Positions 16,226 to 22,350 of a stretch of 64,000 nucleotides of DNA are shown piece after piece. The stretch spans positions 1 to 64,000 of the forward strand of contig JAVYOO010000004.1 in the NCBI GenBank assembly GCA_038734275.1, in the 5' to 3' direction. A program made the translations under genes and the position numbers. How positions within the stretch are numbered: the stretch's first letter is position 1; the number at the start of each line of letters is the position of its first letter. Source of the DNA: Archaeoglobaceae archaeon. Its GTDB lineage: Archaea > Halobacteriota > Archaeoglobi > Archaeoglobales > Archaeoglobaceae. The notes under the pieces were generated by a model, which was not told where the DNA came from, ran no database searches, and was given only the letters and a program-made list of their open reading frames with translations.

Positions 16226-17338
16226 GTGGATGTTGTAGTCGCTGGTGTTGGAATAGCCGGGGCGTTCGCGCTTAGAAGGATTTCGAAGAACATCGATGCA
16301 GTTGGGATCGATAAAAGAGAAAGACTTGGATTTCCAGTAAAATGCGGAGAGATAATTCCGACAAGGAAAGAAATGGAGTCTTTACTTCCAGATCTATATG
16401 ATTACTCTTTGTTTGATATACCGCGCAGGTTTGAGAGCAACAGAACAAAGAGAGTGTGTTTTAACATGGATAGAAAGGAATTATGGATTGATTTTGAGTT
16501 TCATGTGGTAAGAAGAGACGAAATGATCCAGAGAATTGCAAAAGAATCTGACCATCGATTGGAATTGAAAACAGTTATTAGGGGCTTTAAAGATGGCAAA
16601 TTAATAACGAACAAAGGTGAATACGAAGCGAGAGTTATTATTGCAAGTGATGGTGCCAACTCGAGAATTGCGAAGGACATGGGCCTGTGGAATTACGAAG
16701 TCTCGTCCACAAAGCAGTATCTCATGAGAAATGTGGATTGCGAAGAAGATACTGTTTACATGTTTATTGGTCGAGACATCGCTCCGGGAGCCTATGCGTG
16801 GATTATTCCAAAGGGAAATGGCTATGCAAATGTTGGTGTTGGCTTTAGAAGAGAATTCTCTAATGAAAATGTTCATAAGGTTTTGGAGAGATTTGTAAGA
16901 GAATATCCTTATTCGAGTCGTTTTTTAAAAAAGGCTGAAGTTGTAAGCAAAATCGGAGCAGTAGTTCCAGTAGATAAGCCATTTAAAAAGGCCGTTTACG
17001 GGAACGTTATTTTTGCAGGCGATTCTGCAAGCATGATCATTAGCCATACGGGTGGTGGAATTCCGATATCCATGATAGCGGGCGATTTGGCTGGTAAAGT
17101 CGTGAATCATTACTTTGAAGGAGGTTCGTTGGAGGAATATGACCAGCTATGGAAAAAATATCTCTGGAAGGCTTTAATGAGATCTCATCGCATCAAAAAA
17201 GCTTGGGACGTTATTGCAAAAAATGAAAGAATCTCGAGTTTGATGAATTTGGCGAACAGTAGAGATCTTGAGGAAATATTTCACTGCAGAATCCCATTGA
17301 AGCTTAGGCTTCTCTATCCATTTCTCAGGCTACTATGA
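16226..17338 (+). CDS. Geranylgeranyl reductase family FAD protein
   Basis: Flavoprotein of the family that saturates isoprenoid chains, including archaeal membrane lipids. The FAD-binding Rossmann start VVVAGVGIAGAFALRRI is complete, followed by KCGEIIPTR (the family's conserved C-G-E segment), ASDGANSRIAKDMG, and the second FAD motif VIFAGDSASMIISHTGGGIP. It uses a GTG start. Its stop overlaps the start of the next gene (ATGA). Archaea encode several paralogues, so lipid, quinone or dolichol substrate remains open. Confidence 0.9.
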   Translation: MDVVVAGVGIAGAFALRRISKNIDAVGIDKRERLGFPVKCGEIIPTRKEMESLLPDLYDYSLFDIPRRFESNRTKRVCFNMDRKELWIDFEFHVVRRDEMIQRIAKESDHRLELKTVIRGFKDGKLITNKGEYEARVIIASDGANSRIAKDMGLWNYEVSSTKQYLMRNVDCEEDTVYMFIGRDIAPGAYAWIIPKGNGYANVGVGFRREFSNENVHKVLERFVREYPYSSRFLKKAEVVSKIGAVVPVDKPFKKAVYGNVIFAGDSASMIISHTGGGIPISMIAGDLAGKVVNHYFEGGSLEEYDQLWKKYLWKALMRSHRIKKAWDVIAKNERISSLMNLANSRDLEEIFHCRIPLKLRLLYPFLRLL

Positions 17339-18018
17339 AGCTGATTTTCGTGATGGACATAATGAACGGAGTTGTGGTTCTGGCTGAAAGGGGAGAAAGG
17401 AAGAAATATAGGCCTGTAGCTGAGAGTAGCCATCTTGTTAAAAGTAGCGATCCAATCGAAGTTCTGTCAGAAATTAGGCCCAAATTTTTATACGTTGCTG
17501 ATTTGGACAGAATTCAACGAGTTGGGGACAACATGGGAATTCTTAAAGCTCTCTCGAGCGGAGTTGAAGAGATAATGGCAGATTGTGGATTTCGGAATGT
17601 CGGAGAGCTTAAAGATCTTAACTTTATTCCCGTTCTTGGAACGGAGACCTTTGACATCACAGAAATTGGTAAAGTTGGCAAGGATTGCTATGTTAGTTTT
17701 GATTTTCTCGAAGAGAAGTTTCTTGACGCTTCGGGAAGATTTAAAGATTTCAGAGTAGCTCTTGAGTTTCTGAACTCTTATTCAATTCGCGGAATAATCG
17801 TTTTGAACATAAAGCGGGTTGGTTCGGGTAGCCCAGATTTCAGGCTTCTTTCTGAAGTGCTTGAAATTTCAGATAATCCTGTATATTTGGGTGGGGGAGT
17901 GAGTGGGCTGAAAGATCTTGAAAAACTGAAGGAGATGGGTTGCGAAGGAACCCTCGTTTCTACTGGAGTTCACAAAAAAAGAATACCGCTGGAATTAATA
18001 CGTAAAGGATTTATATAA
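17335..18018 (+). CDS. HisA/HisF-related TIM-barrel protein (TIGR00734 type)
   Basis: 227 residues of TIM barrel related to HisA (ProFAR isomerase). HisA-like features are FVMDIMNGVVV at the start, YVADLDRIQRVGDN, and the phosphate-binding YLGGGVSGLKDLEKL. It diverges from true HisA and matches the archaeal hisA/hisF-related group of unknown role found in methanogens and Archaeoglobales. It is co-translated with the upstream geranylgeranyl reductase-like gene (4-nt overlap). Histidine biosynthesis is not assumed, since hisH lies 33 kb away. Confidence 0.85.
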   Translation: MKLIFVMDIMNGVVVLAERGERKKYRPVAESSHLVKSSDPIEVLSEIRPKFLYVADLDRIQRVGDNMGILKALSSGVEEIMADCGFRNVGELKDLNFIPVLGTETFDITEIGKVGKDCYVSFDFLEEKFLDASGRFKDFRVALEFLNSYSIRGIIVLNIKRVGSGSPDFRLLSEVLEISDNPVYLGGGVSGLKDLEKLKEMGCEGTLVSTGVHKKRIPLELIRKGFI

Positions 18019-18403
18019 AATCCATACATTTTATTTTGTTCGCAGCGATTTTCTCTATCCTGGATAAACCTCTCATTTCAATTTTTTCAGCCTTAACCTC
18101 AAAAATTTTGCAATTCTCCCCTATTTTTACAACCTTTGCGTCAATTTTCTCGCCTGTGCAGGAATTTAGGAGAATAACTTCCTCTGCATGGATTGATCTA
18201 AAAGAGGAGAATGCACCAAGAATTATACGCTCACAAACGATATCTCTCAAAGAACAGCCTTTTCCAGTAATAACCTCCTTTGCAAATAAATCTGCAGTCT
18301 CACATCCGATGCCAAGAGTTACACAACCTTCAAATTTCAAATTCTTTTTTATTTTCGAAAAGTTTTCCAGCACCACTATACCCTTTTCTCTATCAACTTT
18401 CAT
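18011..18403 (-). CDS. Beta-solenoid-like protein, unknown
   Basis: 130 residues made of short repeating strands, each of the form hydrophobic-x-hydrophobic with conserved turns: AKEVITGKGCSL, CERIILGAFSSF, AEEVILLNSCTG, AKVVKIGENCKI, AEKIEMRGLSRI, ANKIKCMDFI. The roughly 20-residue period suggests a right-handed beta-helix of the bactofilin/polymer-forming kind. Last gene of a three-gene minus-strand run (4-nt overlap with the PUA protein). Seven cysteines in so short a chain is notable for an intracellular protein. Function unknown. Confidence 0.6.
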   Translation of the reverse strand: MKVDREKGIVVLENFSKIKKNLKFEGCVTLGIGCETADLFAKEVITGKGCSLRDIVCERIILGAFSSFRSIHAEEVILLNSCTGEKIDAKVVKIGENCKIFEVKAEKIEMRGLSRIEKIAANKIKCMDFI

Positions 18404-18858
18404 TCTAATCCCTGTCTCGTTTTGACCGCAACCCCTTTCTTTAGTTCAAGCATCTCAAATGCTGAAAGCAGAGCTTTGCCGGTGGCGAGCAAGTCGTCTC
18501 TTTCGTTCACAATCAGCACTTCATCATTTGCTCTGATTCTATCGTCAACCGCTACCACGTGTTTTGCAAAAACACTTTTTCCTTCTGCTATGAACTCTGA
18601 AACTTCGTTTAGAACAACAACTCTCAGTTTAGGAAATTTAAAGACTCTTTGAAGTCTCCTTGCCCCTTCTATGCTTAGAGTTAGTAGCCCCGAGTCTGCT
18701 TTTAGTGTTGCTATTCTCCTATCTCCGTCTAAAATTTGTCTTATTTTTCCATTCTTTGACAGTAAAAACCTGCAGGTGTCAGGAAAAAGGGCCAAACCTG
18801 CACCTTTACCGAATTGGTAATCAGCTATTACTCTTACAATTCTCAGATTATCTACCAT
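18400..18858 (-). CDS. PUA-domain protein (archaeosine TGT-like C-terminal region)
   Basis: 152 residues: an N-terminal domain (IADYQFGKGAGLALFPD, then GKIRQILDGDRRIATL) like the domain preceding PUA in archaeosine tRNA-guanine transglycosylase, and a C-terminal PUA domain (about 70-148) with VFAKHVVAVDDRIRANDEVLIVN and LLATGKALLS. A stand-alone RNA-binding protein of this type occurs widely in archaea. It overlaps both neighbours, pointing to co-translation with the cis-prenyltransferase-like gene. RNA target unknown. Confidence 0.85.
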   Translation of the reverse strand: MVDNLRIVRVIADYQFGKGAGLALFPDTCRFLLSKNGKIRQILDGDRRIATLKADSGLLTLSIEGARRLQRVFKFPKLRVVVLNEVSEFIAEGKSVFAKHVVAVDDRIRANDEVLIVNERDDLLATGKALLSAFEMLELKKGVAVKTRQGLE

Positions 18859-19396
18859 ACCTCCTCTCCCTCCTCTGATACTCTCTCAGGATCCTCAAAA
18901 AATCAACGTATCTCACGGTGTTCCAGTCAATGTCGGTAAAGTATAGTTCACTGTATATGCTCTGCCATAGTAAGAAGTCCGGAACTTCTGATCCTGCCTT
19001 TATTATCATGTCCGGCTGGGACTTAACTTTGAGCACTGATTCAAAAACCTTTTCATCAATTTTCTCTGGATCAATTTCACCATTAATTGCTTTTCTGGCA
19101 ATCTCTCTTATTGCGTTCACAATCTCATTTCTTCCCAGATTTTTTACTACATTGACAGTTAAATCCCCTTCACCTGTGCTATAAAAATTTTTATCATCAA
19201 TAAAATTGACTTTAACTTTCTCAAGCTTAATCGGAAATGAATTTGTGCAAACTGTAATTTCACGAATTCCAAACTTTCTACACCATTCCAGAAACTTCTT
19301 GAAGTTTTCATTAACTTCCGAGCAGATTATCATTAAATGCTTTGGAGTTTTCTTAATCTTTCTCTCAAGCATCAGCTGATAGATTCGTAGAAGCAC
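18848..19396 (-). CDS. Degenerate cis-prenyltransferase (UppS-like) without active-site motif
   Basis: The C-terminal part matches undecaprenyl diphosphate synthase closely: QPDMIIKAGSEVPDFLLWQSIYSELYFTDIDW, then YQRRERRYG (shown here as separate motifs QPDMIIKAG, FLLWQSIYSELYFTD, YQRRERRYG). The catalytic N-terminal motif HxxIIMDGNRRWA is replaced by PKHLMIICSEVNENF, with no Asp-Gly-Asn, and the Arg-Leu-Ser of the substrate clamp is absent. At 182 residues it is 50-70 shorter than active enzymes. It resembles the non-catalytic NgBR/Nus1-type subunit of heteromeric cis-prenyltransferases, which also keeps the C-terminal RxG. A paired catalytic subunit should be encoded elsewhere. Confidence 0.85.
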   Translation of the reverse strand: MLLRIYQLMLERKIKKTPKHLMIICSEVNENFKKFLEWCRKFGIREITVCTNSFPIKLEKVKVNFIDDKNFYSTGEGDLTVNVVKNLGRNEIVNAIREIARKAINGEIDPEKIDEKVFESVLKVKSQPDMIIKAGSEVPDFLLWQSIYSELYFTDIDWNTVRYVDFLRILREYQRRERRYGR

Positions 19397-19433
19397 GTGA
19401 AAATTTAAATGTCCGAATACTTAATTCTTTTCA

Positions 19434-20612
19434 ATGCTTCCCGTAATGATTACTGCAGTCATAGCATTGGTCGGTATTTTGCCCCATCAGATCTCAGATC
19501 CGAGATTAGTCTTTGCAGTAATGTTTATTGTTACTGCGATTTACGCGAAAGATACGCATAACAAATATTTTCGCTATCTCCTTACCGCCACACTATTATC
19601 GGGACTTGCATGTTTTATGGAAAAAGGAATAATCTATGCGTCAATGTTCGTCTCGTCTTTTTACGAGTTCCGAAAAAGTTCTTTGTTGAGCATCCCCATC
19701 TATACAATTGCCGGAACCGGGTTTTTTTATACATACAATATGCTAAACAATCTTGAGCTTTCCATCTCAAACATACTTTTCATAGCACTCGCGGGTGGCC
19801 TATCAGGAGCTCTGATGGAGAGTATAGATACCCGAACAGATAAGAGAGTTCTGACTTTGCTATCTTTAGCTACAGTTTTTGCAATCTTTAGGATCTATAT
19901 TCCTTCTGCTTCGCTTGAGGAACTTGCCATTGCCTTCGTGGTATCTTTTATACTCAGCTTAATGGCTCTTAAAGCAGGGGTAGCAGACGAAAGCGGGTTG
20001 ATGAGTGCAACTCTTGTTGGGACGATAACGATTCTTTTCACCGATTTGAGATTTTTCGCAGTTCTTCTCTCCTTTTATTTGTTCGGTTCCGCGATTACAA
20101 AGTATAAGTATTCATTAAAATTAAACTTGGGTATAGCGGAACCTTCGGGAGGAGCGAGGGGTTTTTCTAATGTTTTTGGAAATAGCTTGGCCCCACTATT
20201 TTTTACCATGAATTACGGTGTTTTAGGGGATAATTTTTTTGCCCTAGCATTCATAGCTTCCGTAGCGACCGCTCTCGGGGATACAATGGCAAGTGAAGTT
20301 GGTAAAACCGCAAAGAATGTCTATCTAATCACAAATTTTAAAAAAGTTAAACCAGGGACTAATGGCGGAATTTCTGTAATTGGTGAGATAGCCGCTTTGG
20401 CTGGATGTCTTTTGGTATCTATTCTTGCTCATTTTCTTGGAATTCTTTCGATTGAGCATTTTTTACCCGTCATCATTTCGGCATTCATTGCGATTCATAT
20501 AGATAGCCTTTTGGGTGCAACTCTTGAAGTAAAGGGTTATCTGAACAACTCTGAAGTGAACTTTCTTGCAACCCTTTTTGGTGGAATCATTTGTATTTTC
20601 TTATCGCTATGA
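19434..20612 (+). CDS. DUF92 / VTE6-like membrane protein (phytyl-phosphate kinase-like)
   Basis: 392-residue integral membrane protein with about ten transmembrane segments. The C-terminal half carries the DUF92 signature: GVADESGLMSATLVG, EPSGGARGFSNVFGN, ALGDTMASEVG, KPGTNGGIS. Plant VTE6 of this family is a phytyl-phosphate kinase, so a prenyl-phosphate (CTP-dependent) kinase role is plausible. It is divergent, by 38 bp, from the cis-prenyltransferase-like gene, which also acts on isoprenoids. The N-terminal half (1-170) is less conserved. Its 3' end overlaps the opposite-strand protease gene by 26 bp. Confidence 0.85.
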   Translation: MLPVMITAVIALVGILPHQISDPRLVFAVMFIVTAIYAKDTHNKYFRYLLTATLLSGLACFMEKGIIYASMFVSSFYEFRKSSLLSIPIYTIAGTGFFYTYNMLNNLELSISNILFIALAGGLSGALMESIDTRTDKRVLTLLSLATVFAIFRIYIPSASLEELAIAFVVSFILSLMALKAGVADESGLMSATLVGTITILFTDLRFFAVLLSFYLFGSAITKYKYSLKLNLGIAEPSGGARGFSNVFGNSLAPLFFTMNYGVLGDNFFALAFIASVATALGDTMASEVGKTAKNVYLITNFKKVKPGTNGGISVIGEIAALAGCLLVSILAHFLGILSIEHFLPVIISAFIAIHIDSLLGATLEVKGYLNNSEVNFLATLFGGIICIFLSL

Positions 20613-22350
20613 TTGCGGCTAAAGCGCCTATAGCCGATACAACTTCAAAACCGGGGGTTTTTAGCATTTCTCTTATCGCCGATTTTTGGTGAGTTACCGG
20701 GGTTTCTGTGAATTTTGCGTGAATTAGCTCTTTTTCCTCGCTTGTTTCGGCCATTATTGTTATGAACTTTGCTATTCTTTCTGCAAGTGAGTAATACATA
20801 AGCTTTAGGTATGGATTCTCTGCCGTTTCTGCAAATTCAAAATAAGCTGCGGGAAGAACGGGATGGCTTACTTCTTCTGATTCAGACAGGGCCACTTTTG
20901 CGTTCTCTCTTTTTTCGTTTATCTTCATCGAAATATTTCCATAGCTTGCCTCTATGGATAAGCTTGCCTCTGTTATTGCATCTAAGGCTAAAAAAACTGC
21001 TCCTGCAAACTGGTCATCTCTGTAAAGTTTTTTTGAAATTTCAATTGCCTCGTATGCATTTTCGAGCAATTCAGAATATGCATTAAGCGAAGATGCATAT
21101 ACTATGACTGAATTTGCCTGATTTATGTAGAATTCAGCTCTCTTTTTTATTTCTGTAGTATTTAAAAGGTAGTCCTCCTTGAGCATTGGCAAAATGGAGA
21201 GCCATACCTTTGCGCTGTTCAACCTTTCTTTTGCATAGGCAAGGTTCTGGAGCGCTTCGCTATAGCTTTTCGAACTAATAGCTGACTCGAGAGATTTTTC
21301 AGCTTCTGCCACTCTTTCCTGCGCTGCAGCAATTATTTGAATGGAATTTATTCCTGTAGGTTCCTTTTTCAGATATTCTCTAAGATTTGCTATCTCTGCT
21401 TTTATTTTCTCGACTTCTTCATCGAACTGCTGTGCGGTCAAAAGCGTTTTCTTATACATTTCGTATCTCATTAAGATTTTAGCATTGAAAAGTTTGCTTG
21501 TAGCGCTGTAGTAGTTTCCAGCCATATAATCACTCTCTGCCTTGTTCAGAATGTTTTGCGCTTCTGGTGTTGTGTATTTGTTTAATTCTTCTACACTTGC
21601 TTTCATGTTGTCTGCAAGTATTTTCAGAATCTCTGAATACTCTGAAATTCTAAAGCTCGTCTCCTTTCTTTTTATCTCATATCCTGTAAAATATTTCAGG
21701 GCGTCGTTGATCGTTGCAACCTCGTAAACGTTTACACCAAGTTGTTTGCCGTATTCAACGAGATCGACTTCTCTGTAGGTTGTGGTGATAATATTTATCA
21801 TTCCGACCTTTCTTACGACCTTTTCTTGGACTGTAACGATTTTCTGCCCATGGGGGATTAGAAAAATCTTGCCATTACTTTTTGCAACCGCTTCAAGTTT
21901 ATACTTTAAACCACCCACCGGGCCGATAAACCCGTCAGGGTAGATCATTCCACTCATGTAGACGTCTTCCGCTATGCTTAGATTTTTAAGCGCAGAAATT
22001 GTGGCAATTGTCATTACTGCTCCAGCCGAAGGGCCACCGACTATCGGTGCGTCAGCTTCTATAATATAAAAGAAGTCGTATTTTGTGAAATCAATCCCTA
22101 AGAGGTCACATGCAGTTAGAGCTGAAAGCTGAGCACTTCCCTGCATGTCGATTTCGGTGAAGGGTGTTGTGGAAACAAAAACCCTACCGCTTCCAGAATT
22201 GATAAGAACCGTTATATTAATTACTACACCTTCAGGTTCCTCTCCACTGGTTACAGCCACAGCTTTGATCGTTTTCTGGATGTCAAAAGCTAAGATTGGC
22301 TGAATCAGAAGAGAAAAAGCCAATAGCAAAAGTATTGGCATCAGACGCAT
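20587..22350 (-). CDS. Secreted/membrane-anchored Lon-like serine protease (S16, COG1750)
   Basis: Signal peptide MRLMPILLLLAFSLLIQPILA, then a Lon-type proteolytic domain with Ser in GGPSAGAVMT (about 108) and Lys in GGLKYKLEA (about 149), the S16 catalytic dyad. There is no AAA+ ATPase domain. A long helical region (about 230-560) follows, and the chain ends in a hydrophobic C-terminal anchor (VVSAIGALAAIIAI) with a positive tail. It should act outside the membrane without ATP. 587 residues fits the archaeal COG1750 family. Substrates unknown. Confidence 0.9.
   Translation of the reverse strand: MRLMPILLLLAFSLLIQPILAFDIQKTIKAVAVTSGEEPEGVVINITVLINSGSGRVFVSTTPFTEIDMQGSAQLSALTACDLLGIDFTKYDFFYIIEADAPIVGGPSAGAVMTIATISALKNLSIAEDVYMSGMIYPDGFIGPVGGLKYKLEAVAKSNGKIFLIPHGQKIVTVQEKVVRKVGMINIITTTYREVDLVEYGKQLGVNVYEVATINDALKYFTGYEIKRKETSFRISEYSEILKILADNMKASVEELNKYTTPEAQNILNKAESDYMAGNYYSATSKLFNAKILMRYEMYKKTLLTAQQFDEEVEKIKAEIANLREYLKKEPTGINSIQIIAAAQERVAEAEKSLESAISSKSYSEALQNLAYAKERLNSAKVWLSILPMLKEDYLLNTTEIKKRAEFYINQANSVIVYASSLNAYSELLENAYEAIEISKKLYRDDQFAGAVFLALDAITEASLSIEASYGNISMKINEKRENAKVALSESEEVSHPVLPAAYFEFAETAENPYLKLMYYSLAERIAKFITIMAETSEEKELIHAKFTETPVTHQKSAIREMLKTPGFEVVSAIGALAAIIAIRKYK

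Follow-up and report, generated by a model that had tools for sequence, protein, structure and literature searches.

A short NgBR-like chain of Archaeoglobaceae that is probably the non-catalytic subunit of a heteromeric cis-prenyltransferase

Described cis-prenyltransferases of one and two chains

In the human cis-prenyltransferase (cPT) DHDDS/NgBR (PDB 6W2L, 6Z1N) the tail of NgBR, a chain without the catalytic motif, reaches across the dimer interface and contributes its RXG region to the active site of DHDDS (PMC7573591). Yeast Nus1 (PDB 6JCN) is likewise a non-catalytic partner, which resembles the archaeal chain described below at its C-terminus, with Asn where RXG has its arginine (PMC7573591, PMC7839719). 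The homodimeric UppS enzymes of E. coli (1JP3) and B. subtilis (7JLI) share the fold and the C-terminal half with this archaeal chain, but hold in a single chain both sets of residues that are divided over two chains here; a C-terminal RXG is a feature of homodimeric cPTs (PMC8131916).

In Archaea, MM_0618 and MM_1083 of Methanosarcina mazei are reported to form a heteromeric cPT that makes C45-50 products (Emi et al. 2019, as cited in PMC8131916, the citing account being the form in which the report is used throughout). A third M. mazei protein, MM_0014, lacks RXG and yet is an active homodimer (PMC8131916); the absence of RXG alone is therefore no proof that a cPT depends on a partner. A literature search for heteromeric cPTs of other archaea, Asgard archaea included, found none.

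The short gene and its product

The window is a stretch of 64,000 nucleotides from an Archaeoglobaceae archaeon, and its features that bear on the short cPT gene are collected in Table 1. The open reading frame has a putative GTG start and encodes 182 amino acids ending in RRERRYGR. A AAATTTAAA-like sequence near 19405, between positions 19396 and 19434, has a suitable position for a TATA box of the divergent DUF92 gene. For the short gene it lies too near the GTG, and the start codon or promoter of that gene is therefore doubtful.

Table 1. Features of the short cPT locus (positions in the window)
Feature	Position	Strand	Basis
Probable non-catalytic NgBR-like subunit of a heteromeric cis-prenyltransferase, 182 aa	18848..19396	-	PF01255 C-terminal half, residue split, cPT fold
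C-terminal tail with RXG (RRYGR + stop), which would complete the IPP site of the partner	18848..18865	-	alignment
DUF92/TIGR00297 integral membrane protein, divergent neighbour	19434..20612	+	PF01940, 190 bits
TGT_C2-PUA protein, co-translated, thought to lie outside the enzyme	18400..18858	-	PF14810, PF01472; adjacency in Archaeoglobales
Bactofilin-like beta-solenoid, third operon gene, thought to lie outside the enzyme	18011..18403	-	PF04519 in homologues

The product matches the Pfam family PF01255 with 84.6 bits against a cut-off of 27, and the match covers only profile positions 112-219, which is the C-terminal half. Its AlphaFold2 model (pLDDT 84.6) has a cPT fold across the chain and finds a poly-cis-prenyltransferase as its best PDB match in Foldseek (E 2.7e-10, TMq 0.73), so that the protein is not cut off at either end; with the curated cut-off passed and this fold, it is a member of the cPT superfamily. 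In the alignment there is no DGN at the motif position and no equivalent of R30 or R77, and RLSN is replaced by VPD with a deletion of two residues, which leaves the protein without the DGN and the intact Arg-Leu-Ser clamp of a catalytically competent UppS. The sequence-only reading, which had described a UppS C-terminal half without DGN and with part of the clamp lost, was right; most of the clamp is gone. It had put the missing residues at about 50-70, and the chain is 71 amino acids shorter than the full-length paralogue of 253 residues. About 60 residues are gone from the interior, after the first beta-strand and before the LNxA..GGR region, and judging from the alignment and known structures this gap would correspond to the region where catalytic cPTs form the substrate tunnel. 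Seventeen residues, modelled as an amphipathic helix, precede the first strand; no N-terminal membrane region like that of human NgBR is evident in the sequence of the short chain.

The full-length partner and the divided active site

A search of the genome (an assembly of 1.73 Mb, 99.5% complete) for a canonical UppS, as the sequence-only reading had proposed, found only one other cPT, a full-length chain of 253 residues on a different contig (C7:67706-68368). Among PDB entries it is closest to B. subtilis UppS (183.9 bits) and human DHDDS (182.8 bits), and it differs from the latter in lacking the long C-terminal domain. The chain ends in WQRRRACQKS and has neither RXG nor an equivalent of Glu213, both present in the short protein. 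The possibility that the genome encodes a complete homodimeric UppS at another locus was therefore rejected.

This division extends throughout the phylum. When 68 short and 49 full chains were aligned with E. coli UppS, human DHDDS and the NgBR tail, D26, G27, N28, R30, S71, N74, R77, R194, R200 and S202 were present in 49/49 full chains, whereas Glu213 occurred in none of the 49, nor did R242 together with G244, the in-register RXG. The nearest to an exception is one full chain, L083, with an RFG that is two residues out of register. Conversely, all 68 short chains retain the Glu213 equivalent and G244, and 67 of them R242, which is Lys in the remaining one (KXG), while DGN in place, R30 and R77 are each found in 0/68. 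R200 plus S202 are retained in five of the 68 short chains and are absent from the protein in the window. As a control, DGN, Glu213 and RXG stand together in one chain in 10/10 bacterial UppS. Each residue pattern traces to one change per clade, and the 68 and the 49 are therefore not independent events; the weight of these sequence counts lies in their persistence across the phylum and in the exact complement between the partners. In a phylogenetic tree the short proteins form one clade (support 99/100), which holds both the Archaeoglobales and the Methanosarcina chains, and the full proteins form another (98/91).

Human DHDDS and NgBR divide their active-site residues in the same way and in the same columns, DHDDS having Cys in place of Glu213 and lacking RXG, and NgBR having Glu and RLG (its C-terminus reads EQRLGK, compared with RERRYGR here). 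The claim that NgBR shows the same loss as the short chain is thereby borne out, and the residue pattern points to an NgBR-like mechanism in which the C-terminal RXG of a non-catalytic chain complements a partner without one. The profile of the short proteins aligns with NgBR over positions 17-190 of 190 (E 9.6e-10), although homodimeric UppS gives it a better score over the C-terminal half (E 1e-28) than NgBR does (E 1e-9), and in the tree NgBR, with a branch length of 5.1, is too divergent to place.

Comparison with Methanosarcina mazei

The genome of M. mazei was recognised through MM_0014, which is identical to PDB 7caq in 218/219 residues, the start residue being the exception. The other two cPT genes of this genome encode one short and one full chain, and by elimination these are, as a pair, MM_0618 and MM_1083. 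The chains described here are 51% (short, over 96 aa) and 46% (full, over 248 aa) identical to their M. mazei counterparts. Both pairs consist of a short RXG chain without DGN and a full-length chain without RXG, and the placement of the M. mazei short chain within the short clade, together with the lack of RXG in the present gene's own partner, identifies the genes as orthologues. They differ in that the short protein has 224 aa in M. mazei but 182 aa here, and in that no DUF92 gene occurs in the stretch read in M. mazei, whereas here an operon with PUA and bactofilin-like genes lies beside DUF92.

The proposal of a two-subunit archaeal enzyme in the sequence-only reading is therefore well supported by the complementary residues seen in the sequences and by orthology with the M. 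mazei pair, as far as the latter is conveyed by the citing account; it is, however, already published for Methanosarcina, whose short gene is orthologous to the present one. What is new is the complementary split of residues between short and full chains throughout the sampled phylum, as read from their sequences. The description of the enzyme as dolichol-type stands only in part: the role agrees with it, but the C45-50 product reported for M. mazei falls short of most eukaryotic dolichols in length.

A full-length UppS that is self-sufficient as a homodimer might alternatively be regulated by the short protein, or tethered by it to the membrane, DUF92 or the bactofilin-like protein, with no part of the short chain entering the active site. 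MM_0014 is a precedent for activity without RXG, and homodimers of human DHDDS are weakly active, about 400-fold below the complex. A regulator or tether is nevertheless improbable, because the strict retention by short chains of just those residues that the full chains miss (68/68 and 49/49) would be difficult to account for if the active site were not shared, and the M. mazei orthologues are reported, in the account cited above, to be a heteromeric enzyme.

Co-occurrence and gene neighbourhood

The distribution of the genes was followed in 157 genomes sampled within the phylum. The short profile finds a match in 157/157, and at least two cPT genes are present in all but one (G042), an incomplete draft with only the short gene. 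In 56 of the 105 genomes outside the order in which both genes were located, spanning 15 families, the short and full genes lie within 12 kb of each other, and 54 of these 56 pairs are convergent. In Archaeoglobales the two are not adjacent and the full-length gene is found elsewhere.

It is this missing linkage, together with the observation that yeast Nus1 and DHDDS can each homodimerise when expressed alone, that could favour a short protein which binds prenyl diphosphate as a homodimer, or acts on another substrate, unrelated to the full-length UppS. Set against the close linkage of the two genes in many other families, the absence of DGN, R30 and R77 from every short chain and the M. mazei complex, again as reported in the citing account, such a role appears even less probable than that of a regulator or tether. 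That the short gene is a decaying, functionless copy of UppS, which its reduced length and lost catalytic motif might suggest, has next to nothing in its favour, since it is kept throughout the phylum, all 57 genomes of the order included, and an alignment of 21 sequences that are 42-79% identical to the protein in the window shows 33 invariant columns. R178, R179 and G181 of the tail are invariant in this alignment. The short gene contains no stops or frameshifts, and the possibility of a pseudogene or a truncated gene model is ruled out by the same conservation in 57 genomes.

The DUF92 gene, which the sequence-only reading had correctly placed divergent from the short gene, starts 37 bp away from it and encodes a protein that is likely to resemble prenyl-lipid kinases or cytidylyltransferases. 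Such a divergent neighbour is found next to the short gene at almost every locus in Archaeoglobales, and elsewhere at 7 of the 14 loci examined. DUF92 (arCOG02245; similar to cytidylyltransferases and dolichol kinases) has already been linked to uppS (arCOG01532) (PMC5898192). The ancestral order may have been a divergent DUF92/short pair with the full-length gene convergent behind the short gene, and in Archaeoglobales the PUA and bactofilin-like genes follow the short gene in place of the full-length one. The conserved divergent link between DUF92 and the short gene is new, as is the Archaeoglobales operon with the PUA and bactofilin-like genes.

The co-translation of these two genes with the short gene was also recognised correctly, the end of the short gene overlapping the beginning of the PUA gene by 11 bp, and the PUA gene the solenoid gene by 4 bp. 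The PUA protein resembles only the C-terminal domains of the archaeosine synthase ArcS. It was rejected as a functional partner and is treated as sharing the operon only, since its adjacency is limited to Archaeoglobales among the loci examined and the genome encodes a separate full ArcS above the curated cut-off (C1:321933-323303). The beta-solenoid protein can be refined to bactofilin-like: 11 of its 18 homologues match PF04519, its model is an all-beta solenoid (pLDDT 95.8), and Foldseek matches it to BacA with a probability of 0.96, though with an E value of only 0.32. Translational coupling of a bactofilin-like gene with a prenyl-lipid gene is seen across Archaeoglobales. Both neighbours are kept in this order only, and they are therefore not evidence for the enzyme.

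Beside the operon, a geranylgeranyl-reductase-family gene (16226-17338, + strand) and a HisA/HisF-like gene (17335-18018, + strand) overlap by 4 bp, and this order is retained in the closest relatives (L093-L095). The reductase-family protein could saturate a polyprenyl chain. On the other side, a gene for a Lon-type S16 protease domain with a weak PGF-CTERM-like tail (20587-22350, - strand) converges on DUF92; an S16 protease gene occupies this place in 35 of the 61 loci scanned.

Proposed mechanism

The short protein is thus very probably the non-catalytic subunit of a heteromeric archaeal cis-prenyltransferase, paired with the full-length UppS paralogue of the same genome. Residue complementarity, co-occurrence, gene neighbourhood and orthology with M. 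mazei form the basis of this reading, from which we infer physical binding, dependence on the partner and the product. The full-length chain would supply the DGN/Arg/Ser/Asn pocket and the hydrophobic tunnel, and the short chain would dimerise with it via the conserved C-terminal half of the fold, placing its RXG tail at the isopentenyl-diphosphate site of the partner as NgBR does. The Glu213 equivalent of the short chain, to judge by its retention, probably lies at the same site, and neither chain holds the full set of residues by itself. An AglB/STT3-type oligosaccharyltransferase is encoded in the genome, and a polyprenyl sugar carrier is therefore expected; the product would be a polyprenyl diphosphate of medium length that is converted into the carrier lipid for the AglB system, and DUF92 may also have its substrate in this pool of lipids.

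Implications

A medically important design, in which a catalytically dead partner contributes the tail that completes the active site, would thus extend across an archaeal phylum. Being small and without an evident membrane segment, the archaeal short chain offers a convenient model for the activation of DHDDS by NgBR, and the phylum-wide split names the exact positions for testing, namely the tail and the glutamate. For annotation, it means that "UppS" in these archaea probably does not denote a stand-alone enzyme; DUF92 in turn becomes tied to the helper chain. It is conceivable, if rather doubtful, that the split two-chain cPT is ancestral in the whole phylum and that eukaryotic DHDDS/NgBR descended from such an archaeal pair. 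Inheritance of the eukaryotic pair from an archaeal one becomes testable.
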